Shown: positions 4,232-30,121 of the stretch, piece after piece
How the letters are laid out: each line of letters starts with the position of its first letter
How positions within the stretch are numbered: the stretch's first letter is position 1
NCBI RefSeq assembly: GCF_014640975.1
Contig: NZ_BMHO01000001.1
Span: 2,056,166-2,120,165 of the forward strand
DNA from: Microbacterium faecale
Lineage (GTDB): Bacteria; Actinomycetota; Actinomycetes; Actinomycetales; Microbacteriaceae
Direction: 5' to 3'
DNA length: 64,000 nucleotides
The notes under the pieces: model-generated
Told to the model about the DNA's origin: nothing
The model's database searches: none
The model's input: the letters and a program-made list of their open reading frames with translations, nothing else
Position numbers and translations under genes: made by a program

Positions 4232-4362
4232 AGGTCAAGGTTAGGCGCGCGACGGGGGAGAGGAGGTGGTGCGGGACAGGGCTGCGACCTGTGCCGGACG
4301 CCTGACGCGTACATTCCTCCCTGTCCTGTCGCGCGGCCTCGATACCGGATACCGTCCATCCC

Positions 4363-4785
4363 ATGTACCCCGTGCCTGACCGTCGGCTCACGCCGGAAGA
4401 GAACGTTCGTGGGGCCGTCGAGATCTTCGGCCGCGAGCTCGTAGTCGAGTGGTGCGAGGCCCTGGTTCGCGGCGACGCGCCGGATGACGACTCGCGATAC
4501 CCCGATATCGCCTGGCTTAAGGGTCATATCGGGTGGCCCGACCACTGGTCGCGCGTCTGGGGTGCGCGCGGACTGATGCACATCGGGCCGCCCGCGCACC
4601 CCGAGATCGTGATCGACGCGTTGACCGACGATGCGTGGCGTGTGCGTGAGATGGCGTTGAAGGTCGTCACGCGCTACGACCTCGACGACCCGCATGGTCG
4701 CGTGGCCAAATTGCTCGAGGATCCGGTTGAGCGCGTTCGGTTGCAGGCGAAGCGCGCGCTGGGGGTGCCGCCGTCCGCACGGTGA
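4363..4785 (+). CDS. HEAT-repeat-like small protein
   Basis: A 140-residue soluble, helix-rich protein. The second half contains two helical hairpin-like segments (PEIVIDALTDDAWRVREMALKVV and GRVAKLLEDPVERVRLQAKRAL, each described here by position about 80-102 and 111-132) of the HEAT/armadillo kind. A tryptophan-rich stretch (WLKGHIGWPDHWSRVW) precedes them. No enzymatic motif is visible, so a protein-binding role is inferred. The 3' two thirds of this gene recurs, with a premature stop, at 27869-28158. Confidence 0.65.
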   Translation: MYPVPDRRLTPEENVRGAVEIFGRELVVEWCEALVRGDAPDDDSRYPDIAWLKGHIGWPDHWSRVWGARGLMHIGPPAHPEIVIDALTDDAWRVREMALKVVTRYDLDDPHGRVAKLLEDPVERVRLQAKRALGVPPSAR

Positions 4786-4793
4786 GCGGAAGC
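4504..4793 (+). repeat. Long direct repeat, left copy (3' part of HEAT-like gene)
   Basis: This 290-bp segment aligns without gaps to 27869-28158 in the same orientation. Mismatches are concentrated in the first 70 bases; the rest is nearly identical. The match runs from codon 48 of the HEAT-like gene to 8 bases past its stop. The two copies bracket the accessory region. Confidence 0.9.
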
Positions 4794-5050: not shown

Positions 5051-5983
5051 ATGACCGCACTAGAAGTACGCAACCTCCACAAACGCTACGGGCAGCGCAC
5101 CGCCATCGACGACGTCTCGTTCACCGTCGAGGAGGGCGAGATCTTCGGGATCATTGGCCCGAACGGGGCAGGGAAGACGAGCACCGTCGAAAGCATCGCG
5201 GGGCTGCGAACACCCGACTCCGGCACGATCCGCGTGCTGGGACTGGATCCCGCCACCCAGCGCTCCCAGGTACGGGAGCGGCTCGGGGTGCAGCTCCAGG
5301 AGAGCAGCTTCCCGGACGCCATCACCGTCGACGAGGCGCTCGAACTCTACAGCTCCTTCTACCGGCATCCCGCGGATCGGCGCGAGCTGGTGGATCGTCT
5401 GGGCTTGGGCGACAAACGCCACACCCGGTACAAGGCCCTTTCTGGAGGGCAGAAGCAGCGACTTTCGATAGCGTGCGCCCTCGTCGGGAACCCTCAGGTC
5501 GCGATCCTCGACGAACTGACAACCGGGCTGGATCCGCAGGCCCGGCGTGAGACGTGGAGCCTGATCGAGCGCGTACGAGAGAAGGGCGTGACGATCGTGC
5601 TGGTCACGCACTTCATGGACGAAGCGGAGCGCCTGAGCGACCGGATCGCCGTCATCGCCGGCGGGCGCGTCGCCGCTGTCGACACTCCGACAGGCCTGAT
5701 CGCGCGGACCCGCGCGGCACAACAGGTGCGATTCCGCGTGAGGCGACCATTCGACCGAAGCCTCCTCGCCGGCCTCCCAGAGGTATCCGACGTTGAGATC
5801 GCCGAGGGCAGCTGGGTGGTCACCGGGAGTGGACAACTCCTGAGCAGCGTGGCCGGAGCGCTCGCCCGTGCTGATGTCGTGGCGGAGGACCTCCGCGTCG
5901 ACCAGGCGAGCCTCGATGACGCGTTCGTCGCTTTCACCGGCCAGGCACCAGAATCCGCTGACCCCGATCGACAGGAGGGCTGA
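5051..5983 (+). CDS. ABC-2 type exporter, ATP-binding subunit
   Basis: A 310-residue ABC ATPase of the DrrA/CcmA-like exporter type. Walker A is GPNGAGKT (36-43), the signature LSGGQ (130-134), and Walker B ends in ILDELTTGLD, where the usual Pro of DEPTTGLD is Leu. A C-terminal regulatory domain follows (about 220-300). With the permease 3 bp downstream and a NarL-type sensor/regulator pair after it, this forms a four-gene module that typically exports a drug, lipid or peptide and is induced by the sensor. The substrate is unknown. Confidence 0.9.
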   Translation: MTALEVRNLHKRYGQRTAIDDVSFTVEEGEIFGIIGPNGAGKTSTVESIAGLRTPDSGTIRVLGLDPATQRSQVRERLGVQLQESSFPDAITVDEALELYSSFYRHPADRRELVDRLGLGDKRHTRYKALSGGQKQRLSIACALVGNPQVAILDELTTGLDPQARRETWSLIERVREKGVTIVLVTHFMDEAERLSDRIAVIAGGRVAAVDTPTGLIARTRAAQQVRFRVRRPFDRSLLAGLPEVSDVEIAEGSWVVTGSGQLLSSVAGALARADVVAEDLRVDQASLDDAFVAFTGQAPESADPDRQEG

Positions 5984-5986
5984 CCC

Positions 5987-6745
5987 ATGCGTGCTCTGAT
6001 GACAATGCTCAAGATCGAGACAAAGCTTCTGCTTCGCGACCCCGTGACGGTGTTCTTCGGCGTGCTGTTTCCTACCGGTCTGCTGCTCGCCCTCAGCACG
6101 ATCCCAGCACTCAGGGAGTCACCACCGGAACTCGGTGGCCTCCGCGCCATCGACGCGTGGGCTCCGACCGCGCTGGTGTTCGGGATCGTGATGATCGCGG
6201 TGCAGCACACTCCGAACGTGATCGCGACGTATCGCGAGCGCGGGATCCTTCGCCGACTGTCGACCACCCCGGTGCACCCGCGGAGGATCCTGCTCGCACA
6301 AATGATCGTGTCCTTCGCCTCCGTGCTCGTGGGCGCCGCGCTGATGATTACCGTCGCATGGGCGGTTCTCGACATCCCTCCGCCGCAGAGGCCGCTGTCC
6401 TTCGCGGTCGCCTTCATCGTCGGCTACGCCGCTGTGCTCGGCATCAGCATGATCGTCGCCGCGATCGTGCGCACAAGCAGCGCCGCCACCACGACAGGCA
6501 CGCTCCTGTTCATCGCGCTGATGTTCTTCGGGGGCGCGTTCTTGCCGCGGTACACGATGCCGGAGGCACTGCAGAAGGTGGGGGACTTCGTTCCTCCGGG
6601 GCTTCAGGCCTTCATCGAAGCCTGGTCTCCCGCAGCGGGGGAACTGACCAGCGTCGGGCAGCCCTTCTGGATCCAGACCGCGATAATGGCCGGCATCGCG
6701 GTGATCACGAGCGCGATCGCCGCGAAGCTCTTCCGATGGGCGTAG
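5987..6745 (+). CDS. ABC-2 type exporter, permease subunit
   Basis: A 252-residue membrane protein with about six hydrophobic segments and the ABC-2 permease layout: an early TM helix (VTVFFGVLFPTGLLLAL), the RERGILRRLSTTPV coupling segment (about residues 83-96), a run of closely spaced helices, and a C-terminal FWIQTAIMAGIAVITSAIA helix. It pairs with the ATPase 3 bp upstream to form a drug- or lipid-type exporter in the plasma membrane. The sensor kinase gene begins 31 bp downstream. Confidence 0.88.
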   Translation: MRALMTMLKIETKLLLRDPVTVFFGVLFPTGLLLALSTIPALRESPPELGGLRAIDAWAPTALVFGIVMIAVQHTPNVIATYRERGILRRLSTTPVHPRRILLAQMIVSFASVLVGAALMITVAWAVLDIPPPQRPLSFAVAFIVGYAAVLGISMIVAAIVRTSSAATTTGTLLFIALMFFGGAFLPRYTMPEALQKVGDFVPPGLQAFIEAWSPAAGELTSVGQPFWIQTAIMAGIAVITSAIAAKLFRWA

Positions 6746-6776
6746 CCTGACCTCCGACGACGGGAATCGATGCCGG

Positions 6777-8018
6777 ATGAGCACGCAGGAGACCGAACGA
6801 CTGAGTTCGTGGGATCTGCTGCAGCTATGCATGCCGTGGCTGCTCCTGGCGATCTCGGGCGTGGTCTACTTCGCGTGGGCGCTCCCGGCATCCGGAGCGG
6901 AGTTCTGGCCCGAGGGCGCTTCCATCCTCGGGCTCCTCGCCGCCGCCGCGGCGTGGATACTCGCGGGGAGCACGCTGCCGATCACCCGCCGCAACATGCG
7001 TCCGGCCCTTTCGGCGGTCTACTTTCTGGGATTGCTCGGGCTGAGTATCGCCCTCATGGCGTACTCCGAAGTATTCGTGATCCTCACGATCGCGGGATTC
7101 TTCCACGCCTATCTTCTGTCGCCGTGGCCGCTGGGGCTGGCCGCGGTCTTCGCGACCTCGGTTGCGCTCAACGGCATGACGATCTTCCTGCCGGATCCGA
7201 CACCCGAGACGCTCGTGATGTTCGTCGTGATCGTCATCGTGCAGACCGCCGCGATTGGCATCGGGATTCCGATATCGCGTCGACACGAGATCGCCGAGCG
7301 CAAGCGAGAGGAGCTCATCACTCGATTGGAACAGGCGCTGCACGAGAACGCCGTCCTGCATGCGCAGCTGGTCGCGCAGGCTCGCGAGTCCGGGGTGCAG
7401 GACGAGCGTGAGCGCCTCGCCCGGGAGATTCACGACACTCTGGCGCAGGGGTTCGCGGGGATCATCACTCAGCTCCAGGCGGCGCAGCGTCCGACAGGAT
7501 CCGCGCGGGTACCCGATCAACACATCACGCAGGCACTGCACCTCGCGCGCAATGGCCTGACCGAGGCCCGACGGTCGGTTCAGGCCCTCGCGCCCCAGGA
7601 ACTCGGCAGCGCACACCTGCCGGACGCGATCCGCACCCTCACCGAGCGGTGGTCGACCGACGAACAGATCGCCGCGCAGGTCGAGGTGACCGGCAGGCGC
7701 GAGCCGCTGAGTCCCGCGATCGAGGTCGCGCTGTTTCGCGTCGCTCAAGAGTCTCTGACCAACGTCGCAAAGCACGCTGACGCGTCCCGGGTCGGCGTAA
7801 CGCTGTCATACACCGGCTCGGAAGTCCTCCTCGACGTCCGGGATGATGGACGCGGATATGCAGTGGCTGCGGGCGCGGGTTTCGGACTCACGAGCATGCA
7901 ACAGCGGATCCGCGGCATCGGTGGCCACGTCGAGCTGCAGAGCAGCCCGGGGGAGGGGACGTCGGTGAGCGTGCGCGTGCCGGCGATCGTCGACCAGAAC
8001 GAGGAGGCAGGCCGATGA
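6777..8018 (+). CDS. NarL-family sensor histidine kinase
   Basis: A 413-residue kinase. The N-terminal 165 residues hold about five to six TM helices and no large extracellular loop, suggesting sensing within the membrane. The HisKA_3 box is RERLAREIHDTLAQGF with the phospho-acceptor His at about 219. The ATPase domain shows the N box (FRVAQESLTNVAKHA) and G boxes (DVRDDGRGY and GFGLTSMQQR). It overlaps the response regulator start by 4 bp (ATGA), so the pair is translationally coupled. It probably controls the adjacent ABC exporter in response to membrane stress or an antibiotic, by analogy with similar actinobacterial modules. Confidence 0.9.
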   Translation: MSTQETERLSSWDLLQLCMPWLLLAISGVVYFAWALPASGAEFWPEGASILGLLAAAAAWILAGSTLPITRRNMRPALSAVYFLGLLGLSIALMAYSEVFVILTIAGFFHAYLLSPWPLGLAAVFATSVALNGMTIFLPDPTPETLVMFVVIVIVQTAAIGIGIPISRRHEIAERKREELITRLEQALHENAVLHAQLVAQARESGVQDERERLAREIHDTLAQGFAGIITQLQAAQRPTGSARVPDQHITQALHLARNGLTEARRSVQALAPQELGSAHLPDAIRTLTERWSTDEQIAAQVEVTGRREPLSPAIEVALFRVAQESLTNVAKHADASRVGVTLSYTGSEVLLDVRDDGRGYAVAAGAGFGLTSMQQRIRGIGGHVELQSSPGEGTSVSVRVPAIVDQNEEAGR

Positions 8019-8635
8019 TCAGGCTCGTGATCGTCGACGATCATCCGATCGTCCGAGGTGGGCTTCGAGACACGTTCGCCGGCGTCGACGACATCGCGGT
8101 CGTCGGGGAAGCCGGAGACGGCGCCGAGGGCATCGAACGGGCGAAGGCGCTGTCCGCGGATGTCGTCCTGATGGACCTCCGAATGCCCGCAATGGATGGC
8201 GTCACCGCGACCGCCGCGCTCCGGGAGCAATTTCCGAGCGCCCGTGTGCTGATCCTCACCACCTTCGACAACGAATCCGATGTGCTTCCGGCGATCGAGG
8301 CCGGGGCTACCGGATACCTGCTCAAGGACGCCCTCCCGGAAGAACTCGCGCAGGCGGTTCGCGCCGCCGCACGGGGAGAGTCCGCACTTGCGCCCTCGGT
8401 GACGCAACACATTGTGCGCCAGGTGCAGCGAGCTGAAACCGCCGCCCTGACTGATCGCGAGAAGCAGGTCCTGCAACTGGTCGCGAACGGAGCGTCGAAC
8501 CGAGCAGCAGCCGCAGCGTTGTTCATCGGCGAAGCCAGCATCAAGACCCACCTGCAGCACATCTACGACAAGCTCGGGGTCCGCGACCGAGCCTCGGCCG
8601 TCGCCGAAGGGTACCGACGTCGACTCCTGAGCTGA
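8015..8635 (+). CDS. NarL/LuxR-family response regulator
   Basis: A 206-residue response regulator. The receiver has the acidic pair DD (8-9), phospho-acceptor Asp54 (VVLMDLRMPAMDG) and conserved Lys near 105 (GYLLKDALPEEL). A LuxR helix-turn-helix occupies about 140-200 (LTDREKQVLQLVANGASNRAAAAAL). It is the cognate partner of the overlapping kinase gene and likely activates the upstream ABC exporter operon. Confidence 0.92.
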   Translation: MIRLVIVDDHPIVRGGLRDTFAGVDDIAVVGEAGDGAEGIERAKALSADVVLMDLRMPAMDGVTATAALREQFPSARVLILTTFDNESDVLPAIEAGATGYLLKDALPEELAQAVRAAARGESALAPSVTQHIVRQVQRAETAALTDREKQVLQLVANGASNRAAAAALFIGEASIKTHLQHIYDKLGVRDRASAVAEGYRRRLLS

Positions 8636-8737
8636 CGCCCGGGTGCAGTCATGATGCGAGTCCGTCCGCGGGGGAGAGGGCGAGCCGGCACCGCCGGCGG
8701 GAGAGCAGTTCCCTGGCGATCCCAGGCCGTCAACAAC

Positions 8738-8827
8738 CTAGTCTTCTTGAATCAGCTCGATGAGTTCGTCGGGGTTATCTTCCGGTGTGAGCCCCACGGT
8801 GACGTGATCGCCCGTGAGCGGTTCTTC
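8738..8827 (-). pseudogene. C-terminal remnant of a SecD-head-like lipoprotein gene
   Basis: Reading the minus strand, the last 27 codons before a TAG give EPLTGDHVTVGLTPEDNP and then DELIELIQED. This matches the C-terminus of the lipoprotein at 29150-29647 (EPLSGDHVGLGLSPEDDP, DAIIELIRGS), at roughly three quarters DNA identity over 75 bases. Upstream, the homology stops abruptly where repeat R1 and the 3' end of a GNAT gene begin. It therefore looks like a gene truncated by arrival of the GNAT module. Confidence 0.65.
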
Positions 8828-8833
8828 TGGTTT

Positions 8834-8875
8834 CTGATGGGTAATCCCGTTGCCCATTTCTTCGCTCTTGCGCGC
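8834..8875 (-). repeat. Recurrent element R1, after the stop of the GNAT gene
   Basis: The segment CTGATGGGTAATCCCGTT and the 24 bases after it match 13008-13049 closely. It starts directly after the GNAT stop when read on the minus strand. It shares CATCAGAA (minus strand) with R2 and R3. Confidence 0.6.
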
Positions 8876-8878
8876 CGG

Positions 8879-9391
8879 CTAGCGCACCATCCTGACTTCT
8901 ACGATCCCGGCGAGGGCGGGGTCGACGAACTCGACGCCATCCGCCCGGAATCCATGGCGTTCGTAGAACGCACGAGCACGATCGTTGCCGCTGAGGACCC
9001 AGAGCTGCGCCGGTCGGTCTTCCACGACGGCATCCAGGAGGGCGCTCCCGATGCCCATCTCGTGTTCCTGCGCGAGAAGGTAGATCGAGTACAGGTGAAG
9101 GCTGCGGGCGGGGGCGAATCCCTTGATAGCGTCGGGGTGATCGGCTGGTCCGGCGAAAGCGAATCCGACCACCTGATTACCGCGCTCAGCGACCGCGATC
9201 GCGCCCGGAAGCGGATCGAGGCCGAGAATCGACTCCCACATGCGACGCCTCGCGATCAGTGCATCGTCATCCATGAAGGTATCCGGGATGACACCTGGAT
9301 AGGTCTCGCGCCATGACCCGATGTGAACGTCGGCGATCCCGTGGGCGTCGTGCAGTTCGGCGAGGCGCACCCGAAGTGCCGGGAGATCCAT
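8879..9391 (-). CDS. GNAT N-acetyltransferase
   Basis: A 170-residue GNAT enzyme. The segment GIADVHIGSWRETYPGVIPD (about 16-35) is the usual N-terminal helix pair of this subgroup, followed by a degenerate acetyl-CoA loop EMGIGSALLDA and RARAFYERHGFRADG near the C-terminus. The ATG at 9391 is chosen because upstream codons do not look like protein. It lies divergent to the deaminase gene, 117 bp away. A second, broken copy of the same gene lies at 12987-13559. The stop codon is followed at once by repeat R1. Confidence 0.8.
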   Translation of the reverse strand: MDLPALRVRLAELHDAHGIADVHIGSWRETYPGVIPDTFMDDDALIARRRMWESILGLDPLPGAIAVAERGNQVVGFAFAGPADHPDAIKGFAPARSLHLYSIYLLAQEHEMGIGSALLDAVVEDRPAQLWVLSGNDRARAFYERHGFRADGVEFVDPALAGIVEVRMVR

Positions 9392-9508
9392 GGTGAGACG
9401 ATACACGGACGACTCACGCGTGATTGCCGACGATGGATCCTGGTCCCGTCGATCCGCGCGGGTTCGCAGATGGGCTTGCGTCAAACGTGCCTGATATCGT
9501 TGCGCGCT

Positions 9509-10195
9509 GTGGAGCCTCTCGAAGACGATCAAAGGGTCATCGACGCAGCCGAAGCGCTTGCACGGAGGTTGGGCGACAACGACAATCACACCGTCGCTGC
9601 GGCTGTCATGGATATCGATGGGCGCGTCCATGAAGCGGTGAATGTCTATCACTTCACAGGTGGGCCGTGCGCGGAGCTCGTCGTACTTGGTGTCGCGGCG
9701 ACGTCAGGAGCGAAGCAACTCCTGACGATTGCCGCAGCCGGCGACCGAGGCCGCGGACTGATCTCGCCGTGCGGACGCTGCCGGCAGGTGCTCCTCGATC
9801 AGCACCCGGACATCCTGGTCGCGGTGCCAACCGAGAACGACCCGGTGATGCGGCCGATCCGCAAGCTGCTTCCGGACACGTACTTCTATCCGGACGCGCC
9901 TGATGGACAAATCGTGCGCTTCAATCGCAGGTACCACGACGAAGTGATGTCGGGGGAGAAGACGTCAACCATCAGGTGGGACGAAGAGTGGCTTGCTGTT
10001 GGTCAGGCGACGTTCGTCTTTGAGGGCCATCCGCAGTTCGCGCATGTCGACGGGGCGATCACGGCTGTGGAGGCGACGACGCTCACCGCCTTGGATCCCG
10101 GCCATGCCGCTGGCTTGCGTGGCCATTACCCCGCTATGCCTGACGACGCCAAACTGTTGCGAGTTGAGTTTCGGGTCGACCTTCACGGCACTTGA
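9509..10195 (+). CDS. Blasticidin-S-deaminase-like domain fused to an ASCH domain
   Basis: A 228-residue two-domain protein. Residues 1-130 are a cytidine-deaminase fold with zinc ligands Cys54, Cys88 and Cys91 and catalytic Glu56 (GGPCAELVVLG and SPCGRCRQVLLD). The segment VNVYHFTGGPCAELVVLG is strikingly like the published blasticidin S deaminase (BSD) of Aspergillus. Residues about 137-228 (FNRRYHDEVMSGEKTSTIRW onward) form an ASCH domain, a PUA-like fold associated with RNA or modified nucleosides. The start is the GTG at 9509; an upstream ATG at 9470 is possible. Deamination of a cytosine nucleoside antibiotic or modified nucleoside is inferred, not shown. Confidence 0.8.
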   Translation: MEPLEDDQRVIDAAEALARRLGDNDNHTVAAAVMDIDGRVHEAVNVYHFTGGPCAELVVLGVAATSGAKQLLTIAAAGDRGRGLISPCGRCRQVLLDQHPDILVAVPTENDPVMRPIRKLLPDTYFYPDAPDGQIVRFNRRYHDEVMSGEKTSTIRWDEEWLAVGQATFVFEGHPQFAHVDGAITAVEATTLTALDPGHAAGLRGHYPAMPDDAKLLRVEFRVDLHGT

Positions 10196-10206
10196 TTGCG
10201 GGGGTT

Positions 10207-10983
10207 CTAGGCCTGCGGTAGCCATAGTGTCATGCGCAGTTCTTCGTCGGGAATGTGGAGCACTTCGTAGCGTCGGGCAATCACCTCGCCCGTCGCGGTG
10301 CGAATGTGCTTGATCGACGCACGGCGCTGCTGGACGATGTGCTCGGCCCACCACTCCGTGAACAGCGGGCTCTGCGCGCTGAGATCCGCAACGAGCGTCT
10401 GCAGCTGAGGGTCGTGGAGATCGTCTGCGTTGGCCGCACGGAGGTGGGCGACGGCGCCGCGTGCGAGCTCTTCCCACTCGACGAAGATCTGAGAAGCACG
10501 CGGGTCTGTCATCAGGTAGCGGCATGTGTTGCGCTGCTCAGGCGCGAGGTCAGCGAAGCCGTCGTACAACGCGAGTCCTTCGTGATTCGCGGCAATCATG
10601 TTGCTGAATCGGTCCAGAACGTACGCGGGATTCGGCGCCACAGCCTGAACCAGCGCGCTCATCCGCTCGGCAAGAGCGCTGCTGCTCGCGCGCGCGTCGC
10701 GCGACGAGTTGGCAGGCGTCCCGCGCAACCGAAAGAGATGGGACTTCCCATCGTCGGTAAGGTCCAGGACGCCCGCCAGCGCGTTGATCACTGCATCGCT
10801 GGGGTGCCTCTCGCGCCCCTGCTCGAGACGGGTGTAGTAGTCGACGCTGATCCCTGCTGACGCCGCAACCTCTTCGCGCCGCAGGCCCGTTATCCGGCGC
10901 CTGCCGGCGGCGCCGTTCGTCGACGGCTGGGGCGGCACTGCCGCTCGACGAGCGCGGAGGAAGTCGCCAAGTTCGTTGGGCAC
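10207..10983 (-). CDS. XRE-family transcriptional regulator with MmyB-like ligand domain
   Basis: A 258-residue regulator. The N-terminal HTH_31-type domain has ITGLRREEVAASAGISVDYY (31-50) and TRLEQGRERHPS. The C-terminal part (about 110-258) is the PAS-like MmyB domain (NPAYVLDRFSNMIAANHEGL; RYLMTDPRASQIFVEWEELA). Members of this family usually control an adjacent oxidoreductase or methyltransferase gene. Here it is divergent from the SAM methyltransferase at 11107, with 123 bp between, so it probably regulates that gene and itself. Confidence 0.88.
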   Translation of the reverse strand: MPNELGDFLRARRAAVPPQPSTNGAAGRRRITGLRREEVAASAGISVDYYTRLEQGRERHPSDAVINALAGVLDLTDDGKSHLFRLRGTPANSSRDARASSSALAERMSALVQAVAPNPAYVLDRFSNMIAANHEGLALYDGFADLAPEQRNTCRYLMTDPRASQIFVEWEELARGAVAHLRAANADDLHDPQLQTLVADLSAQSPLFTEWWAEHIVQQRRASIKHIRTATGEVIARRYEVLHIPDEELRMTLWLPQA

Positions 10984-11106
10984 GTTGCGGTTCCTTCCTG
11001 CCCCGCTCGGGTGGGTCCGGGACTCCTATGAAGAGTACGGCCTTCCGCCCTGCTGGTCGGAGTCGGGAGGGTAGGCGGAAGCATCCCTCGCGAGGAAGGT
11101 CATCCC

Positions 11107-11913
11107 ATGACGTCATATACCCACGGTCATCACGAATCGGTTCTGCGCTCGCACCGCTCGCGCACCGCGCAGAACTCAGCCGCGTACCTTCTTCGGCTGC
11201 TGAAGCCTGCCGACCGGCTTCTCGACGTAGGTGCCGGACCTGGCACAATTACGGCCGACCTTGCCGAGCTCGTTCTCGAGGTCACTGCGACCGAGATCGG
11301 CGAGGAGGAGCTGACGCTCACCCGCGCGACTGCAGCCGAACGCGGAAGCACGAACATCGACTTCCGAACCGCCGACACTCATGCACTCCCGTTTGATGAC
11401 GACACATTCGATGTCACGCATGCACATCAGGTGCTGCAGCACGTCGCCGACCCGGTGCGGGCTATGCGGGAGATGGCGCGTGTCACGAAGCCGGGCGGCA
11501 TCGTCGCCGTGCGTGACAGCGACCACGCCGGTTTCTGCTGGTGGCCGCAACTTCCCGCCCTGGACAAGTGGCTGAGCTTGTACCGCACGGCAGCACGCGC
11601 CAACGGAGGCGAGCCGGATGCCGGGCGCCGGCTGCTCTCCTGGGCGCACGCAGCTGGCCTCAACGACGCCACCGCCACGTCGAGCACCTGGTGCTACGCC
11701 AACCCGACTGAGCGCGCCTGGTGGGGAAGCATGTGGGCCGACCGCATCCTGAACTCCGCGATCGCGCGGCAGCTCATCGACTCAGGCTTTGCCGCGCAAG
11801 CCGAACTTCAGGAGATTAGCGACGCGTGGAAGGAGTGGGCAGCCGACGAGGACGGCTGGATCTCTATCCTCCATGGCGAGATCGTCTGCCGAGTCCCGCC
11901 AACTGCGGGGTGA
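11107..11913 (+). CDS. Class I SAM-dependent methyltransferase (UbiE-like)
   Basis: A 268-residue methyltransferase. Motif I is LLDVGAGPGTIT (38-49), followed by an acidic post-I residue (VTATEIGEEELTL) and motif DDDTFDVTHAHQVLQHV, giving a complete Rossmann-like SAM fold. A family-typical ending (WKEWAADEDGWISILHGEIV) closes the protein. An AGGAAGG-like ribosome-binding site sits 9 bases before the ATG. It is divergent from the XRE regulator. The methyl acceptor is unknown; methylation of a small toxic compound would suit its accessory surroundings. Confidence 0.87.
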   Translation: MTSYTHGHHESVLRSHRSRTAQNSAAYLLRLLKPADRLLDVGAGPGTITADLAELVLEVTATEIGEEELTLTRATAAERGSTNIDFRTADTHALPFDDDTFDVTHAHQVLQHVADPVRAMREMARVTKPGGIVAVRDSDHAGFCWWPQLPALDKWLSLYRTAARANGGEPDAGRRLLSWAHAAGLNDATATSSTWCYANPTERAWWGSMWADRILNSAIARQLIDSGFAAQAELQEISDAWKEWAADEDGWISILHGEIVCRVPPTAG

Positions 11914-11965
11914 GTGTAGCAACACCTGCGGGTCGCACGCGGCGCTGAGGGGCCGGTGGTTCCTC

Positions 11966-12034
11966 GCGCAGATCAGGGCGGGAGAGTGCATTCAACGAGA
12001 ACATGTCGGCTTCTGATGGTTGACCGGGTTATCG
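11966..12034 (-). repeat. Recurrent element R2, after the stop of the PHP gene
   Basis: A 69-bp segment. Its first 27 bases (plus strand) match R4 at 14524 almost perfectly. Its second half (ACATGTCGGCTTCTGATGG) matches R3 at 12997-13013. Arms TTGACCG at 12020-12026 and CGGTCAA at 12053-12059 form an inverted repeat that includes the PHP stop codon. Confidence 0.7.
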
Positions 12035-12055
12035 GTTCCTTCACTATCTGCTCGG

Positions 12056-12910
12056 TCAACGAACCCAGTAGTCCCAGGTGTTTGCGCCAGCTCGGAATCC
12101 GTAGTGTTCGAGCATGGCGACGGCTTCCGGGAAATTACGGGCCACCGCATCCGGTGTGTGAGCGTCGCTTCCAAAGGTCACAGCGCGGCCACCTTCCTCG
12201 GCCCACCACTGGGGCACCCACGACCACAGACGGCCGGTGTTCATCTCGAGCGCGCGTCCCCTCTCTGCGATCGACCGCATCGCCCGACGAAATCCTTCCT
12301 CGAACGCTCGGGGATCGAACGGGCCGAGATCCCACGTCGGCCATGTGCGCGCCGCATAGTCGATGTGCGTGAACACGGCGAAGCTGTCGGAGCCCTCGAC
12401 CATGCGCGGCACTTCCTCTAGATACGCCCACATAACCTCCGCTGCCGGATGCTCGGCGTAGAGGGTCACGGGCTCGGCGCGCAGGCCGCCACCCATGTCC
12501 AGGGTGTGAAGCGAGCCCAGCACAAGATCGAGCGCCGACAGGTCGATGAGATCCCCGGCAGCCTCCTCAAAAAGGTGGGGCTGACCTAGCTCAACTCCCG
12601 ATCGAATCACAAGATCAGGGAACGCCCGCCGGAAGCGGTCGATGCTGTCGAGATAGCCTTCGGCATTGAGTAGTGGATGCTCAACCGCGCCATCAGCGGA
12701 GAGAAATCTGCGTTGGTGTGGCATGAGATCATCTGAGCTTGATCGCCATGTGCCAGGGAAGTCGAGGTGTTCGGTGAAAGTAACCGCAGGCAGCCCGATA
12801 CGGACCGCGTGTTCACAGGTCGCGCGCATTCGCCCTCGGGCAGCTGATTCGGGGCCACCCGTGTCCCACGACCACTCGCTATGAACGTGACTATCCGCAG
12901 GGAAGTTCAT
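12056..12910 (-). CDS. PHP-domain hydrolase (histidinol-phosphatase-like)
   Basis: A 284-residue PHP-family metal-dependent phosphoesterase. The first motif is DSHVHSEWS (6-14). Further metal-ligand candidates are FTEHLDF (about 45-51), the Glu in RSGVELGQPHL, the His in GSLHTLDMG, THIDYA and GSDAHTP near the C-terminus. This matches HisK-type histidinol phosphatases, but no his genes are near and the accessory setting argues for another phosphate ester. The 3' end is marked by repeat R2, and R3 lies 76 bp upstream of the start, so the gene forms a self-contained unit between two repeat copies. Confidence 0.85.
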   Translation of the reverse strand: MNFPADSHVHSEWSWDTGGPESAARGRMRATCEHAVRIGLPAVTFTEHLDFPGTWRSSSDDLMPHQRRFLSADGAVEHPLLNAEGYLDSIDRFRRAFPDLVIRSGVELGQPHLFEEAAGDLIDLSALDLVLGSLHTLDMGGGLRAEPVTLYAEHPAAEVMWAYLEEVPRMVEGSDSFAVFTHIDYAARTWPTWDLGPFDPRAFEEGFRRAMRSIAERGRALEMNTGRLWSWVPQWWAEEGGRAVTFGSDAHTPDAVARNFPEAVAMLEHYGFRAGANTWDYWVR

Positions 12911-12985
12911 CTCGAAAGTCTAGGACGGCGCACAATTCGCCGTTTCTACTGTTCAGAGGGCGTATTCTGCAGCGGCTTACTCGCA

Positions 12986-13052
12986 TCTAACGAGACCATG
13001 TCAGCTTCTGATGGGTAATCCCGTTACCCGCTTCTTCGCTCTTGAGCGCCGC
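12986..13052 (-). repeat. Recurrent element R3, read into by the GNAT pseudogene
   Basis: Plus-strand bases TAACGAGACCATGTCAGC (12988-13005), then TTCTGATGG, match R2; bases 13008-13052 match R1. On the minus strand GGGTAA and TTACCC form a 6-bp stem around CGGGA. Confidence 0.7.
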
Positions 13053-13559
13053 CGAGAGCACCATCCTGACTTCCACGATTCCATCGGACGCGGGGTCGAC
13101 GAACTCGACGCCATCCGCCCGGAATCCATGGCGTTCGTAGAACGCGCGAGCACGATCGTTGCCGCTGAGGATCCAGAGCTGCACTGGATGATCTTCCAGG
13201 GCGGCGTCCAGGAGGCTGCTCCGATGCCTCTGTCGTGCTCGTGCGCGAGGAGGTAGATCGATCACAGATTCAGGTCGCGTGCTGGTGTGAGACCCTTCGT
13301 GGCATCGGGGTCGGATGGGGCCGCGAAAGCGAGACCGTCGACCTGCCGGGCGACCGCGGCTCGATCACGTTCGAGGACGAGACTCCCGAGGGCGCCGGGG
13401 AGCGGATCTCGGCTGAGAATTGTTTCCCACATGCGTCGCCTTGCCTCCAGCGTATCGGCGCCCATGAAGCGGTCAGGGATCACTCCGGAGTACGTCTCGC
13501 GCCATCACTGGATATGGACATCGGCAATCCCGTAGGCGTCGGTGAGGCTGTGATCTGCC
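12987..13559 (-). pseudogene. Broken second copy of the GNAT acetyltransferase
   Basis: The minus strand encodes a relative of the gene at 8879-9391, recognisable from GIADVHI through RARAFYERHGFRADGVEF to VRMV. It is disabled by a stop after HIQ, a second stop after the ARDLNL segment, and a frameshift in the acetyl-CoA loop, so the two halves are in different frames. The stop codon of the intact relative is also lost, so the final frame reads on through R3 to a TAG at 12987, adding a tail that ends GNGITHQKLTWSR. At its 5' side it is joined directly to a recombinase remnant. Confidence 0.8.
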
Positions 13560-13573
13560 AGGCGTTGACTCGC

Positions 13574-13888
13574 CCCGGCTTCGTCGAGCGCGCGCATGCG
13601 TGCGAGGTGCACGCATTTCGCGAGTTGCTGGATCAACAGCGCGTCGGCGGGGGAGAGGGGAGTGACTTTGTCGGTGACCCAAACCTCGAATCGTTCGACG
13701 TCGAGGGTTACCTTGTCGAGCACGCCATGCTCCATGAACAACTAATGCAGGAATGCGACCTTCGCGCGCGATGAATGGGTGATGAACGCGTTGTGAGAGA
13801 TCGCCCGTGCACCGGTCGCGAAATCGCGGAGCAACTGTTTCGTGTCCCTAATGATCGTCAGCCAGATCGTCGCGTTGCTGTGTCGACC
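13574..13888 (-). pseudogene. Remnant of a zinc-ribbon tyrosine recombinase gene
   Basis: The minus strand gives ATIWLTIIRDTKQLLRDFAT, a stop, then EHGVLDKVTLDVERFEVWV and QQLAKCVHLARMRALDEAG. This aligns with about residues 57-150 of the recombinase at 26529-27833 (ATIWLTVNPAAKQLLRDLAT; EHGLLERVNFDIERFQAWV; RQFARWVHLQRMHALDAAG). A TAG interrupts it, and the catalytic half is missing, replaced by the GNAT pseudogene. It is plainly a fossil of a second member of the same recombinase family. Confidence 0.75.
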
Positions 13889-13920
13889 GCATCGTCCGGC
13901 GGGTTAAGTAGCCTTGCGAG

Positions 13921-14415
13921 ATGAGCTCAATGATCGCGACCGACCGCCGCGGCAATCACCTCGTCTCGCTTGAAACGGCGAGCCCCGAAGAACTCAATGC
14001 TGCCGCCGCGCACACTCGCTGCCCGCTTGCGCTCGTCGTGCTCGTTGACGGCGCGACAGGAGACGTGTTGTTCGGCCTGAACACCTGGCGACGCGAATAT
14101 GAGCTTCCCGGTGGCATTGTTGAGCGCGGGGAGTCGTTCGTCGAAGCGGCACGACGAGAGCTCGAAGAAGAAACTGGCATCCGAATCGACACTCTCGATC
14201 TCCTCGGCTACGCACGTTTCACTCTAACGGACCCGAACCGCAGCGAACTAGGTGCGGTCTACTTCGCGAAGGTTGTCAACGAGCACGCAACGGCCAGTGA
14301 CGAGATGCTGCAGTTCGTCTGGCGGCGGCCGCTGAGCGAGTCGAATTTTACGATCTCCATACTTGACGACGCGATCGCAGAGTGGGCGGCTCGCTCTGGT
14401 GAAGCCACCTCATAG
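13921..14415 (+). CDS. NUDIX hydrolase
   Basis: A 164-residue NUDIX enzyme. The box GX5EX7REUXEEXGU is complete from Gly65 to Ile87 (GIVERGESFVEAARRELEEE, then TGI). The preceding ELPGG and following LLGYARFTLTDPNRSELGAVYF fit a small house-cleaning pyrophosphatase acting on nucleoside diphosphate derivatives. It is a single-gene unit in the accessory patch, read on the plus strand, with the recombinase remnant 33 bp upstream and R4 109 bp downstream. The precise substrate is unknown. Confidence 0.88.
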   Translation: MSSMIATDRRGNHLVSLETASPEELNAAAAHTRCPLALVVLVDGATGDVLFGLNTWRREYELPGGIVERGESFVEAARRELEEETGIRIDTLDLLGYARFTLTDPNRSELGAVYFAKVVNEHATASDEMLQFVWRRPLSESNFTISILDDAIAEWAARSGEATS

Positions 14416-14523
14416 CAACGCCCTTAAGCCTCTGGCGATTCATCGTCCCGGCGCACGTTACCGATGTTCATATATGGGCGCTCAACGGTGATGACGCCGG
14501 AAGCGGCCGTTATCGGAGGGCAC

Positions 14524-14593
14524 GCGCAAATCAGGGCGGGAGAGCGCATCAAGTCATAGCATGCCAACCTCTACTGGTGACCCGGCGTAATCG
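14524..14593 (-). repeat. Recurrent element R4
   Basis: The first 27 bases (GCGCAAATCAGGGCGGGAGA and on) match R2 at 11966 with two or three differences. The second half is a more diverged version of the same element. Unlike R1-R3, it lies downstream of a plus-strand gene (NUDIX). The remainder of 14416-14933 shows no gene; it holds this element, the island's left end and the cmtR promoter. Confidence 0.6.
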
Positions 14594-14744
14594 TGACCGG
14601 CGTATTCGCTGTCGAGAACGCCCGTCCGACACTCCGCCGAATACGTACCACACGCGTTTCGGTGCGGTTAGGTTTCGGCGGAGGGTTTCGGCGGGTCACG
14701 CTTCGGCGTGTCGCGCGCTTGATGGCCCTCGTCGGCCTGGTCGC

Positions 14745-14837
14745 CAGAAACGATCGTTTGCGGCGCGGCGAGTGAAGGCACACCAGATCGAATGCCAGAA
14801 ATGTGCGCCGTAAACGGGTTTCGGTAGGCGTATTCGG
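14745..14837 (+). repeat. Left inverted repeat of the heavy-metal island
   Basis: An outer palindrome AAACGATCGTTT (14748-14759) is followed by 35 bases, then an arm at 14795-14837. Read in reverse complement, the arm begins CCGAATACGCCT, continues CCGAAA, and ends CGGCGCACATTTCTGG. The same three parts with the same 35-base spacing occur inverted at 26122-26211. Confidence 0.85.
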
Positions 14838-14915
14838 TGGGGGTGGGCCGGATGTACTTACACCCACGCCCCAGAGATGTGGCCTGGGGTGAAGCCGTTC
14901 CGATAGGTCATCAAT

Positions 14916-14932
14916 CACTGTATAGTTCAGTG
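14916..14932 (+). promoter_or_regulatory. cmtR promoter with overlapping operator
   Basis: CACTG and CAGTG (14916-14920, 14928-14932) are inverted arms around TATAGT (14921-14926), a good -10 hexamer. Transcription starting about 7 bases later would begin at or next to the GTG at 14934, so the mRNA is probably leaderless. A repressor bound here would block RNA polymerase directly. Confidence 0.6.
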
Positions 14933-14933
14933 T

Positions 14934-15293
14934 GTGCTGACTATTGCCTCACGCCTCGATGTCATGAACCGGCTCGGCCGGGCCATGGCCGATCCCACGC
15001 GTTCCCGAATCCTAATGTCTCTGCTCGGTGGACCGAGCTACCCGGCTGTGCTCTCTCGTGAGCTGGAGCTGACACGGTCGAACGTGTCGAATCATCTCAC
15101 CTGCCTGCGAGACTGCGGGATCGTCGTTGCCGAGCCGGAGGGTCGCCAGACTCGTTACGAGATCGCCGACCCGCATCTTGCGGCTGCGCTCGTCGCGCTC
15201 GTGGACGTGACTCTGGCGGTCGATGAGCATGCGCCGTGCGTGGACTCTGCGTGCACGGTGGCTGGCTGCTGTGGGGCGGGGGCTGACGCGTGA
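14934..15293 (+). CDS. cmtR: CmtR-type ArsR/SmtB-family metal-responsive repressor
   Basis: A 119-residue winged-helix repressor. The recognition helix region LTRSNVSNHLTCLRDCG is almost that of Mycobacterium tuberculosis CmtR, and the Cd/Pb-binding cysteines fall at the same positions, Cys57, Cys61 and Cys102. Extra cysteines follow (107, 112, 113). CmtR represses its efflux operon until Cd(II) or Pb(II) binds. It is the first gene of the Cd half of the island and overlaps the ATPase start by 4 bp. The GTG start is supported by the leaderless promoter. Confidence 0.92.
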   Translation: MLTIASRLDVMNRLGRAMADPTRSRILMSLLGGPSYPAVLSRELELTRSNVSNHLTCLRDCGIVVAEPEGRQTRYEIADPHLAAALVALVDVTLAVDEHAPCVDSACTVAGCCGAGADA

Positions 15294-17206
15294 GCGCGGC
15301 GTGCGGCTGCGAGCACGAGCCTGCCGCGACGGTGGGCGAAGAGATCGAAGAGGCCGAGCGGCCCTGGTGGAGAGACCGCGGGGTCATGGTGCCGGTGTTC
15401 TCCGGCGTTGCGTTCCTGGCCGGTCTGATCTTCGAGTGGTCCGGGCTCGAGATCCCGGCACTGGTGCTGTTCTGGGTCGGACTGCTTCTGGGCGCGTCGA
15501 CGTTCACGCCCGGCGCGCTCCGGAAACTGTTCAAGGGCAAGCTCGGCATCGGGCTGCTGATGACGATCAGCGCGATCGGTGCCGTCATCCTCGGGTACGT
15601 GGAGGAGGCTGCAGCTCTGGCGTTCTTGTACTCGATCGCGGAGGCGCTTGAGGACAAGGCGATGGACCGCGCCCGCGGCGGACTGAGGGCACTGCTGAAG
15701 CTCGTGCCGGAGACAGCGACAGTGCTGCAGGGCGGCGTCTCCGCGCAGGTGCCGGCGAGCGAGTTGACGGTCGGCCAGGTCATGGTGGTCCGCCCGGGTG
15801 AGCGGATCGCGACTGACGGGGTCGTGCGCTCTGGCCGCTCCAGCCTGGACACTTCCGCGATCACCGGGGAGTCGATCCCGGTCGAGGTCGAGCCCGGCGA
15901 CGCGGTGTCGGCCGGTGCGATCAACAGCGCCGGCGCCCTGGAGGTCGAGGCGACCGCTGCGGGCACCGACAACTCGCTCACGACGATCGTGGAGCTGGTC
16001 GAGAAAGCGCAGACCGAGAAGGGCGAGCGTGCTCGTCTGGCGGACAGGATCGCCCGCCCACTGGTGCCCGGCGTTCTGATCCTCGCTGCGCTCGTCGCGA
16101 TCATCGGGTCGCTGCTGGGCGACCCGGAGGTGTGGATCACTCGCGCGCTCGTCGTGCTGGTCGCCGCTTCTCCGTGTGCGCTGGCGATCTCGGTGCCGCT
16201 GACGGTCGTCGCGGCGATCGGTGCGGCGAGCAAGTTCGGTGTGATCATCAAGTCCGGCGCCGTTTTCGAGCGATTCGGCACGGTCCGATACGTTGCCGTC
16301 GACAAGACCGGCACCCTCACCCGCAACGAGCCCGCCGTGACCGCCGTGCTCACTGCGAACGGGGTGACCGAGGCTCAGGCTCTGGCCTGGGCGGCCGCGT
16401 TGGAGCAGCACAGCACGCATCCTCTCGCCTCAGCGATCACTGCCGCGGCGCCGGGGACTCCCGCAGCTGCAGATGTGACCGAGCAGGCCGGGCACGGCAT
16501 TGTCGGCACCGTCGACGGATCGAGAATCACCGTCGGTAGTCCCCGCTGGCTGGACGCCGGCGACCTCGCGGAGCGGGTCGCGGAGTTGGAAGAGCAGGGC
16601 ATGACCGTCGTCATCGTGCACCGCAACGGAACCCCCGTCGCCGCGATCGGCGTCCGTGACGAACTGCGCCCGGAAGTCCCCGAGGTCGTCCGGACACTCA
16701 CCGGCCAGGGCGTCGGGGTGACGATGCTCACCGGCGACAACGCCCGGACCGCTCGCGCGCTGGCGGCGCAGGCCGGGATCAGCGACGTGCGAGCAGAGCT
16801 GCGCCCTGAAGACAAAGCGACCGCGATCGGGGAACTGTCGAAGGCGGGACCGGTCGCGATGATCGGCGACGGCATCAACGACGCCCCGGCCCTCGCGTCC
16901 GCGGACATCGGCATCGCGATGGGAGCGACCGGATCCGACGCAGCGATCGAGTCCGCCGACGTGGCCTTCACCGGGCATGATCTCCGCCTGATCCCGCGAG
17001 CGTTCGATCACGCCCGGCGCGGTCGACAGATCATCAACCAGAACATCATCCTGTCGCTGCTGATCATCACCGCACTGCTCCCGCTCGCGCTCTTCGGGGT
17101 CCTGGGGCTAGCCGCTGTCGTCCTGGTCCATGAGGTCGCGGAGGTCATCGTGATCCTCAACGGCCTGCGTGCCGCACGCACCCGCACGCCACGACTGGAA
17201 AGCTGA
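15290..17206 (+). CDS. Heavy-metal P1B-type ATPase (Cd/Zn/Pb/Co efflux)
   Basis: A 638-residue P-type ATPase with no N-terminal HMA domain; residues 5-9 (CGCEH) could bind metal. TGES is at 192-195, the TM metal motif is SPC (294-296), the phosphorylation site DKTGT (338-342), with MLTGDN and GDGINDAPA later. SPC rather than CPC is the P1B-4 signature (CoaT/CtpD-like), and the last helices carry VLVHEVAEVIVI. Operon position under CmtR points to Cd or Pb, the motif to Co, Zn or broad range, so the metal is left open. The gene overlaps both neighbours by a few bases. Confidence 0.9.
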   Translation: MSAACGCEHEPAATVGEEIEEAERPWWRDRGVMVPVFSGVAFLAGLIFEWSGLEIPALVLFWVGLLLGASTFTPGALRKLFKGKLGIGLLMTISAIGAVILGYVEEAAALAFLYSIAEALEDKAMDRARGGLRALLKLVPETATVLQGGVSAQVPASELTVGQVMVVRPGERIATDGVVRSGRSSLDTSAITGESIPVEVEPGDAVSAGAINSAGALEVEATAAGTDNSLTTIVELVEKAQTEKGERARLADRIARPLVPGVLILAALVAIIGSLLGDPEVWITRALVVLVAASPCALAISVPLTVVAAIGAASKFGVIIKSGAVFERFGTVRYVAVDKTGTLTRNEPAVTAVLTANGVTEAQALAWAAALEQHSTHPLASAITAAAPGTPAAADVTEQAGHGIVGTVDGSRITVGSPRWLDAGDLAERVAELEEQGMTVVIVHRNGTPVAAIGVRDELRPEVPEVVRTLTGQGVGVTMLTGDNARTARALAAQAGISDVRAELRPEDKATAIGELSKAGPVAMIGDGINDAPALASADIGIAMGATGSDAAIESADVAFTGHDLRLIPRAFDHARRGRQIINQNIILSLLIITALLPLALFGVLGLAAVVLVHEVAEVIVILNGLRAARTRTPRLES

Positions 17207-17814
17207 TGCTCGCCACCATCGGTTCAGCGATCGGCCTGTTCTCGGCAACCAACATCGACGACATTGTCGTGCTCACCGTGCTGTTCCTCGCTTCCAGTCG
17301 AGGGAAGCCCCGGCCGTGGCAGATCGTCGCGGGCCAGTATCTCGGGTTCATCACCCTCGTCGTGATCAGCGTGATCGCCGCTCTCGGTCTCACCATCGTT
17401 CCGGACGAATGGGTCGGTTTCCTGGGTCTGATCCCGCTCGGCATCGGGATCTGGACGCTCATTCGCGGCCTGCGCCGTAACGGCGATGACGATGATGACG
17501 ACTCCAAGATCACTGCGGTCGGACTATGGGGCGTCGCAGGGATCACGATCGCCAACGGGGCCGACAACATCTCCCTCTACACGCCGATCTTCCGCACCAG
17601 TGCCCCCAGCGACGTCGCGATCATGATCGTCGTGTTCCTGATCCTCGTCGCAGTCTGGTGCGCGGCCGGCCGGCTGATCGGCACCAACAAGGCTGTTACC
17701 GAGGGGCTGGAGCGCGTCGAGCACTGGCTCGTACCGGCCGTGTTCATCGGCCTGGGCCTGTTCATCCTGATCGAATCTGGGGTCATCGTCCGTCTGATCG
17801 AGGTGCTCGCATGA
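17206..17814 (+). CDS. cadD: CadD-family cadmium resistance transporter
   Basis: A 202-residue membrane protein with about five to six helices and the CadD hallmark near the N-terminus, FSATNIDDIVVLTVLFL (about 12-28), plus IANGADNISLYTPIF in the middle. An acidic loop (GDDDDDDSK, about 92-100) lies between helices. CadD proteins confer cadmium resistance by export. It overlaps the ATPase by one base (TGATG) and lspA by four (ATGA), so all are one transcript. Confidence 0.9.
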   Translation: MLATIGSAIGLFSATNIDDIVVLTVLFLASSRGKPRPWQIVAGQYLGFITLVVISVIAALGLTIVPDEWVGFLGLIPLGIGIWTLIRGLRRNGDDDDDDSKITAVGLWGVAGITIANGADNISLYTPIFRTSAPSDVAIMIVVFLILVAVWCAAGRLIGTNKAVTEGLERVEHWLVPAVFIGLGLFILIESGVIVRLIEVLA

Positions 17815-18344
17815 CCTCCTCCCAGGCAGAGGCTCATCCGCCCGCTGCGCGCAAACTATCGTCGACCCGGCGGCGGCAGCTCACTGGTGGAGCGCTCTTG
17901 ATCGCCGTGGTCGTCGTGCTGATCGATCAGGGAACCAAGGTGTGGGCCGAAGCGACCCTCACCGAGCGCGAGCGCATCCCGCTGATCGGTGACATGCTGG
18001 GTTTGCAGCTCGCCTATAACCCCGGAGCGGCATTCTCCTTCGGGGAAGGCTTCACCTGGGTGTTCGCGCTGCTCGCTGTCGCCGCCACGGTCACAGCGAT
18101 CGTGTTCGCGTTCCGAGTGCAACGCGTGGGATGGGCGATCGTCATCGGCGCGCTCGGCGGCGCTGCCGCCTCACACGCAGGCGACCGCCTTTTCCGCGAC
18201 CCCGGATTCGCCCGGGGCCACGTCGTAGACTTCCTCGCCTACGGAAACTGGTTCATCGGCAACATCGCCGACATCGTAATCTTCGCCGCAGCGATCACCG
18301 GAGCAGTTTTCATGATCCGCACCGGGGATGAGAGCACCGAGTGA
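17811..18344 (+). CDS. lspA: Signal peptidase II (LspA) of the metal-resistance operon
   Basis: A 177-residue prolipoprotein signal peptidase. Four TM helices carry the family motifs: LIDQGTK (38-44), LAYNPGAAFS (67-76), GDR (124-126) and GHVVDF plus NIADI with the catalytic aspartates at 140 and 154. The usual GGAxGNxxDR is altered to GGAAASHAGDR. LspA removes lipoprotein signal peptides in the membrane. A second lspA within cadmium operons is known from other mobile elements; here it may process the two lipoproteins of the Cu half. The start overlaps cadD by 4 bp. Confidence 0.92.
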   Translation: MTSSQAEAHPPAARKLSSTRRRQLTGGALLIAVVVVLIDQGTKVWAEATLTERERIPLIGDMLGLQLAYNPGAAFSFGEGFTWVFALLAVAATVTAIVFAFRVQRVGWAIVIGALGGAAASHAGDRLFRDPGFARGHVVDFLAYGNWFIGNIADIVIFAAAITGAVFMIRTGDESTE

Positions 18345-18635
18345 GATCCGTTCTGCTGTGGTGGGGGTTGGCATCCCGGCCAGCCCAGCAGGGGTGCTGT
18401 AAATACGGCAGGCGAGGTCATTGCTTCGCCCCGACCCCGGAAAGAGATCGTTGCCATCCAGGGTGATCGTGGGGGAGCCCGCGAACGAGGCTGCGCCCGC
18501 GTCCTCCTCCGTCCGGATGAGTCGGTAGTGAACCTCCGATTCGTCGTGGCCTGTTTCTCGTAGCGCCTCAGAAGCACGACGGCCAGCCTCAACCCAGCTG
18601 GGGCAACCGGCGATATAAAGCAGCTCAATGTCCAC
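18171..18635 (-). CDS. Thioredoxin-fold protein of the alkylmercury-lyase-like type
   Basis: The minus-strand frame encodes 154 residues. The first 100 or so (MDIELLYIAGCPSW, then FAGSPTITLDGNDLF and LACRIYSTPAGLAGMPT) match small thioredoxin-like proteins found beside mercury and metal resistance genes, with a single Cys11 instead of CxxC. The family normally ends soon after the GLAG-P segment. Here the frame runs on for about 58 codons over the end of lspA on the opposite strand, with no family resemblance, which suggests that the natural 3' end was lost at a junction. Confidence 0.6.
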   Translation of the reverse strand: MDIELLYIAGCPSWVEAGRRASEALRETGHDESEVHYRLIRTEEDAGAASFAGSPTITLDGNDLFPGSGRSNDLACRIYSTPAGLAGMPTPTTAERISLGALIPGADHENCSGDRCGEDYDVGDVADEPVSVGEEVYDVAPGESGVAEKAVACV

Positions 18636-18683
18636 GACTCAATCATCCTCGACTTCGCTGTTGATGTCGTGCCCGGGCTACCA

Positions 18684-18703
18684 CCGAAAACGATCGTTTT
18701 CGG
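18684..18703. repeat. Perfect 20-bp palindrome at the Cd/Cu boundary
   Basis: The sequence is CCGAAAACGATCGTTTTCGG. It matches the palindromes at the two island ends (two or three differences on the left, one on the right) but has no flanking arm. It lies between the convergent-facing Cd half and the Cu half. Confidence 0.85.
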
Positions 18704-18752
18704 CAGGCTCTCGGAGCACAAGCCATGATCGACCGATTATCGCTAGCAATCG

Positions 18753-19349: not shown

Positions 19350-19503
19350 ATTCCTCACCTGTCGTCTCGGTTCGTTGCGCGGTAGCGCGATTGATGACGA
19401 CGTGTGGGTAAGAGCGCTCGCTAGTCTGCTTCGGCCTGGTCAACGGTCATCACTGGATTGATGCGGGTAGCGAAGAACTGCACGACGCCGTCGAGGTGGC
19501 TAT

Positions 19504-19905: not shown

Positions 19906-19972
19906 AGTGGCTCCTCTCGTCATTGTGGAGTCTTAAACTACGACCGCACCTCGCTCCCGAGGACCCCGTTGA

Positions 19973-19989: not shown

Positions 19990-20038
19990 GGTAGTTCAGC
20001 GGCAGATCATCGTCGCAGCGATTACTGTGCGGTGACGA

Positions 20039-30013: not shown

Positions 30014-30086
30014 TAGATCGAGGATTCGCGGTGCCTGCGGGACGGGCCCTGTTCCAGGGGAGACGAGAGTCGTGGTACGAGCTGAC

Positions 30087-30100
30087 ATAATGTGCATTAT
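30087..30100. promoter_or_regulatory. AT-rich palindrome between two convergent genes
   Basis: ATAATG TG CATTAT is a 14-bp inverted repeat in otherwise GC-rich DNA. It resembles an operator, but both neighbours point toward it, so a role is unclear. Confidence 0.3.
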
Positions 30101-30121
30101 CGGCAATAGCACATTCTCGGC

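Follow-up and report, generated by a model that had tools for sequence, protein, structure and literature searches.

How did a row of genes, interspersed with related repeats and accompanied by pieces of a recombinase gene, come to lie on the chromosome of Microbacterium faecale? We analysed a stretch of 64,000 nucleotides (the window; assembly GCF_014640975.1, contig NZ_BMHO01000001.1, positions 2,056,166 to 2,120,165) in which this row occupies roughly positions 8,738 to 14,593, with four repeat copies, R1 to R4. A first-pass annotation of the sequence had suggested a gene-capture system analogous to integrons, built of one-gene modules that each end in the shared repeat. We find that the window also contains the chromosomal dif site, and the account we favour is that the row is probably a zone of accretion, now decayed, to one side of dif, produced by serial insertion of elements carrying a characteristic trio of genes, with R1 to R4 as the worn ends of those elements.

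Chromosome dimer resolution depends on the dif site, where, in Proteobacteria, phages and islands are known to land. In the window it is CCGATAATGCACATTATGTCA, at 30083..30103 on the minus strand, the sole perfect match in this genome; the remaining matches have three mismatches each and are located elsewhere. A dif match with at most two mismatches is found in 144 of 149 genomes of the genus, and GC skew changes sign at the site, from +0.005 to +0.015 before it to -0.018 to -0.034 after it. We therefore conclude that the window spans the terminus of the chromosome. The site agrees at every position with 21 nt of the dif given for Frankia alni in PMC3025954. All four repeats lie on the dif strand, at distances from 15.5 kb (R4) to 21.3 kb (R1).

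The four repeats are not equivalent. R2 (11965..12035) and R4 (14501..14595) each consist of a worn core with a dif-type flank, and R3 (12981..13029) of a GGGTAA/TTACCC core with such a flank; R1 (8832..8855) is a core only, its flank lost, fused to the tail of a lipoprotein gene, so that past CATCAGAA the repeat enters the last codons of that truncated gene (8734-8827). A lipoprotein-like gene related to this tail stands at 29150-29647, and a third version is present in an Agrococcus contig described below. On the minus strand R2 and R3 have CATCAGAAGCYGACATGKTCTCGTTRRATGC in common, with 27 of 31 nt identical, and CATCAGAAGCNGACATG matches both with no mismatch, where shuffled sequences average 0.51 matches at up to three mismatches. 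The part common to R2 and R4 is the stretch that follows (27 nt at 93%); GATGCNCTCTCCCGCCCTGAT has one mismatch in R2 and none in R4, against 0.02 matches expected at up to three mismatches. A BLAST search of the genome with R2 returned only R3 (E 4.5e-5), R4 (E 1.6e-4) and one weak 16-nt match (E 0.30).

Of the four related copies originally described, R2, R3 and R4 are indeed related, but R1 resembles R3 because the adjoining GNAT genes are copies of one another (88% over 217 nt, 75% over 155 nt and 75% over 91 nt). The repeat is real, but R1 and R3 are for this reason not independent gene-end repeats as their position at gene stops had implied, and R4 is not at any minus-strand gene end. 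The inverted arms at the PHP-gene stop in R2 and the 6-bp GGGTAA/TTACCC stem in R3 are both present, the arms measuring 8 bp. Rfam gave no match over 8600-15000 at E <= 1, R2 had no match in plasmids, and an exact search of viral contigs for the R-type motif found none. A single 22-nt plasmid match to the R3 region, in a Burkholderia relative, was taken as chance.

The connection between the repeats and dif comes from other genomes. Outside its own genome, the best match to R2 among 398 related genomes is in Labedella phragmitis (G033/L063), where R-like sequence begins 4 nt past the end of the dif site CTGATAATGCACATTATGTCA; that the position of this match was fixed before dif came into consideration speaks for the connection. 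A separate route led to G434, a genome of the same genus, which was examined because the segment next to R4 matched it. Here dif is followed by GTTTGAAGCTGACATGTCTGCGCCGGTGCGCTCTCCC, GAAGCTGACATG is common to R3 and the stretch 4 nt after dif, the run GAAGCTGACATG..TGCGCTCTCCC lies behind the site, and a worn R4-like copy is found about 0.5 kb beyond the dif-flanking sequence. An nhmmer model of three sequences (Labedella, the G434 dif flank and the worn G434 copy) applied to the window ranked R4 first (5.3e-10), then R2 (6.8e-6) and the real dif (1.1e-3), with the next match at 0.11. Since R4 and the worn G434 copy are themselves related, the match to R4 is not fully independent, and the Labedella copy was itself found through R2. 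As a lone query the Labedella flank returned R2 first (E 6.4e-5) and then R4 (E 8.7e-4), and the G434 dif flank returned R4 (E 0.016) followed by an unrelated place (0.052); R3 reached E 6.4e-5 with a model that includes R2 and R4. A scan of genome contigs with a pattern built from R2, R3 and the Labedella match, which recovers Labedella by construction, hit 24 contigs. Those with related sequence are from Labedella and, with two sites, Agrococcus; the remaining 22 were put down to chance on the printed sequence alone.

The recombinase pieces lead to dif as well. The longer of them (P0001; 26529..27833, minus strand) is an open, 5'-truncated frame for a zinc-ribbon protein, here called REC, which is related to proteins labelled 'recombinase XerD' or hypothetical in plasmid records, from which the XerD name stems. 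It covers residues 37-484 of a full-length REC (locus L112) and is without approximately the first 36 residues. The REC fossil (13574..13876, minus strand), recognised by sequence identity to REC relatives, shares 44% identity with a full-length relative, over residues 129-229 of the latter, and 54% with P0001, with one stop. The broken recombinase gene noted at first is thus a genuine fossil and the frame at 26529 is open, but neither copy is complete. A fragment (27869-28161) of a 140-aa gene that stands at 4361-4792 abuts the truncated REC start.

Relatives of P0001 occur in 243 plasmid records and, among 150 genomes of the family, in 19, this one included. In the first five of the plasmid records examined, REC is third in a trio, after a site-specific integrase (INT) and a small helix-turn-helix (HTH) protein; four further records have HTH and REC, with the integrase whole in one and broken or missing in three, and one Rhodococcus plasmid carries two trios in tandem. 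A trio element is defined by its three genes in order on one strand; the window holds REC pieces only, and INT relatives at 1e-60, present in 38 of 396 genomes of the order, number zero in this genome. INT is a clear Phage_integrase member (PF00589 at 7.5e-21). REC had no recombinase match in Pfam, NCBIfam or PDB, a weak profile match (E 0.0039, probability 8.6%) and an invariant C-terminal tyrosine; it is a putative recombinase or accessory factor.

Both chromosomal and plasmid-borne, the actinobacterial trio often has dif, or a site like it, at a distance of some hundreds of bases. Counting both strands, 22 of 60 trio loci have a dif-like site (at least 19 of 28 matches) in the 600 bp upstream of INT, as against 2 of 1069 downstream segments, and in 17 of 55 when the five loci fetched through dif are excluded; the order-level loci in this set are the best 30 of 45 matches, of which 28 qualified. 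The distance from the site to INT is 198-297 bp in 21 of the 22. One genome, G445, has a trio at its chromosomal dif and a second one (L183, on contig C6) beside a dif-like site with another spacer. In other families of the order (L240-L269) the dif-like site near INT, at about 200 bp, is often in the opposite orientation.

We surveyed 40 dif regions of the same genus, hand-picked before the trio search and covering 2.5 kb upstream to about 17.4 kb downstream of dif (two were shorter). A complete trio lies directly downstream of dif in four of these, starting roughly 240-300 bp away, and in one more region a REC fossil lies downstream. In G028 (L112) dif at 5072 is followed by INT (5304-6428), HTH (6435-6773) and REC (6770-8227), encoding 374, 112 and 485 aa, then by a small opposite-strand gene (8245-8661) and a second flank copy (~8725-8811) without a recognisable dif. 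G507 (L207) has dif, a REC fossil, one gene of 189 aa that has no Pfam match, and a second flank copy 1.4 kb from dif. In G478 (L213), which has no trio, a strongly matching flank copy (E 1.4e-11) follows 9.5 kb after dif. When each dif region was searched with its own flank at E <= 0.01, same-strand second copies downstream of dif were found in three of 46, all in genomes other than that of the window; reversed and complementary controls gave none. Some trio loci, then, combine a cargo gene with a worn second site. The earlier idea that the repeat marks a unit boundary linked to a recombinase gains from the fossil-gene-repeat order of G507, which recurs beside dif, but the tie to dif itself had gone unseen.

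These observations can be assembled into the following scheme. Trio-type elements would integrate into dif or immediately next to it, and the first part of each would be an accessory sequence of its own, the R-type flank, beginning a few nucleotides past dif. Every further integration would leave an intact dif at the left and displace the end of the previous element outward, where the displaced core may decay because only one dif must work. The worn ends pushed away in this manner would be R4, R3, R2 and R1, all in dif orientation, and the genes between them leftover cargo. We infer that the R cores were once dif, that the insertions followed this order, and that INT carried out the chemistry. 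The recombinase and repeat copies in the window look inactive.

A nearly identical row offers a comparison. On a contig binned as 'Candidatus Agrococcus pullicola' (Microbacteriaceae) the same row matches window positions 8832-13097 at 98.0%, and the counterpart of 13198-14764 is on another Agrococcus contig at 97.6%; positions between 13097 and 13198 fall into the gap between the contigs. The gene at 4361-4792 has a counterpart on the first contig that is only 93.3% identical, and thus the row block may have been recently exchanged, to judge by these identities. Three differences separate the two rows: at R1 Agrococcus has 533 nt where the window has 4, the GNAT pseudogene differs in a patch near 13329-13395, and at 14764 homology stops. 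Clean gain or loss of single gene-plus-repeat units, which the cassette idea had called for, does not appear: in the one near-identical row available the genes are common as a block.

Several results weigh against serial accretion at dif. The Agrococcus comparison, a single one with a contig gap, has no gene-plus-repeat unit gained or lost; neither the dif of the window nor that of Agrococcus, which is on another short contig, has an R-type flank; and 43 of the 46 dif regions are without a second flank copy in the own-flank test at E 0.01. The flank evidence leans on two genomes, Labedella and G434, and without the Labedella sequence the R flanks were not outstanding in a rank test of 8524 segments. 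Aligned to dif without their flanks, the R cores did no better than random window segments, R4 marginally excepted: the share of 2000 segments that scored as high was 0.36 for R1, 0.26 for R2, 0.73 for R3 and a marginal 0.028 for R4, and 0.20 for the right copy of G028 in the same test. As to whether the element borders derive from dif, the flanks match dif flanks of two genomes and the cores do not. A dif-like site is absent from 38 of 60 trio loci, and in six of the nine order-level loci that have one it points the opposite way, so insertion beside dif in either direction is possible too.

If the R flank were native sequence beside dif, R1 to R4 could be copies spread by ordinary duplication or rearrangement of the terminus rather than element ends. 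A CTCYCCC motif about 30-60 nt after dif, seen by eye in several genomes of the genus with or without the trio, fits this explanation, as do the lack of any listed REC match for Labedella, the lack of a trio near the G434 dif and the abundance of duplicated pieces in the region. We nevertheless consider it unlikely, since flanks differ strongly among genomes of one genus, are nearly alike in different genera where the trio follows (G028, G507), and border the trio or REC-fossil units in those same two genomes. Alternatively, a transposon-like element might insert next to dif in the manner of IS1202-type elements, with the repeats as an end of it and with no part in exchange between units. Insertion sequences that target dif do exist, as described in PMC10132070, dif-like sites upstream of INT occur in both orientations, and the segment adjoining R4 is also present away from dif; the narrow dif-INT distance and a flank that continues straight from the dif arm argue the other way, and we give this possibility rather little credence. 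That the repeat might simply be part of one common transposon had been named as grounds for dropping the cassette idea, and this is partly the case, in that the repeat is best read as the end of a trio element.

An integron-type cassette array with attC sites is highly improbable. Heptamers of the GTTRRRY type with short complementary arms upstream can be picked out by eye in R2, R3 and the Labedella copy, but the single-strand fold is not unusual (z-scores of -1.30 to +0.74 for R2, R3, R4 and the Labedella copy on both strands, n=8), and by this measure there is no attC-type hairpin. Among the six PF00589 loci of this genome, one of which (L006) matched no family and was perhaps read in the wrong frame, the best score against the integron-integrase model TIGR02249 was 127.9, below the cut-off of 265; the genome has one XerD above cut-off and a XerC-like protein just below it. 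With genes on both strands and sites tied to dif, fold, integrase and cassette orientation all fail, and we rejected the array; capture through integron-like sites, as first conceived, was not borne out. Insertion of trio-type elements at dif remains the account we favour.

Set beside known systems, the row is probably a variant of elements that use dif, resembling a gene-capture array, decayed, and not an integron. It shares with integron cassettes accessory genes that have a common site near their 3' ends, and differs in having no attC fold, no integron integrase that we could find, genes on both strands and a link to dif. Acinetobacter dif modules (plasmid dif, pdif) are likewise small gene units bordered by Xer-type sites, but their sites are intact, whereas the row has one intact dif and worn copies in the same orientation on a chromosome, and is not flanked by two recognisable Xer sites. 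The sites of pdif modules are inversely oriented. Integrative mobile elements exploiting Xer (IMEX) also insert at dif and end up between one intact and one modified dif, as reported for LME-1 of Legionella (PMC9765430, PMC5357621); they rely on host Xer, whereas the trio elements carry their own integrase and have a second site worn beyond recognition. Tn554-like actinobacterial transposons, on plasmids and chromosomes, combine adjacent tyrosine recombinase genes with a third protein, as the trio does, but in the description of Van Houdt et al. (2012; PMC3414803) the recombinases are of 611-828 and about 350 aa, accompanied by TnpC, unlike the 374, 112 and 485 aa of the trio, whose REC is unlike known recombinase families. 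The IS1202 family resembles the trio elements in using dif and pdif as targets (PMC10132070), and has one DDE transposase where these have a tyrosine-integrase trio. We found no description of the trio at dif in actinobacteria in the open-access literature searched.

A wider proposal, which we regard as doubtful, is that actinobacteria possess a dif-anchored platform for gene accretion, in which trio recombinases recognise dif plus the accessory flank and can also move small units made up of just this flank and one cargo gene, making the terminus an integron-like collection point for single genes that evolved separately from integrons and from the Acinetobacter dif modules. Should the link between the trio and dif be confirmed, actinobacteria would have a terminus-based route for collecting accessory genes, and the history of insertions could be read from the flank copies.

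The genes of the row do not form the one-gene modules originally proposed. The interval from R2 to R1, about 3.2 kb, holds four genes on both strands: a GNAT gene at R1 (8879..9652, minus; PF13508, E 4.4e-11; the longest frame, its start not settled), a cytidine deaminase-type gene (9323..10195, plus; PF00383; longest frame) with ASCH-domain relatives in plasmids, an MmyB-type HTH regulator (10207..10983, minus; PF17765, E 2.6e-37) and a methyltransferase (11107..11913, plus; PF08241, E 2.5e-24). The last two are also adjacent in G431, of the same genus, at 70% over both. Between R3 and R2 lies a PHP-domain gene (12056..12910, minus; PF02811, E 2.9e-8), and between R4 and R3 the GNAT pseudogene (12987..13541, minus), a duplicate of the gene at 8879, and a NUDIX gene (13921..14415, plus; PF00293, E 6.5e-16). 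The segment adjoining R4 (14573..14764, no strand assigned) also occurs in G434, some 0.3-0.5 kb past dif on the downstream side, and is found at places away from dif as well. In the GNAT pseudogene a patch of about 67 nt (13329-13395) recurs at 97% identity on contig C2 of this genome, with similar places in many genomes of the genus; it is not in the Agrococcus copy, and looks like gene conversion.

The palindrome CCGAAAACGATCGTTTTCGG, allowing three mismatches, has three sites in the whole genome, all in this island (14744-14763, 18684-18703 and 26196-26215). The first coincides with the end of the homology to the Agrococcus row, and that Agrococcus contig ends at another copy; the palindrome may mark another joint of recombination or be a site for a regulator. 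The interval between R4 and dif (14934-25339) carries genes of heavy-metal type, encoding an ArsR regulator, two P-type ATPases, signal peptidase II and DUF305 proteins.

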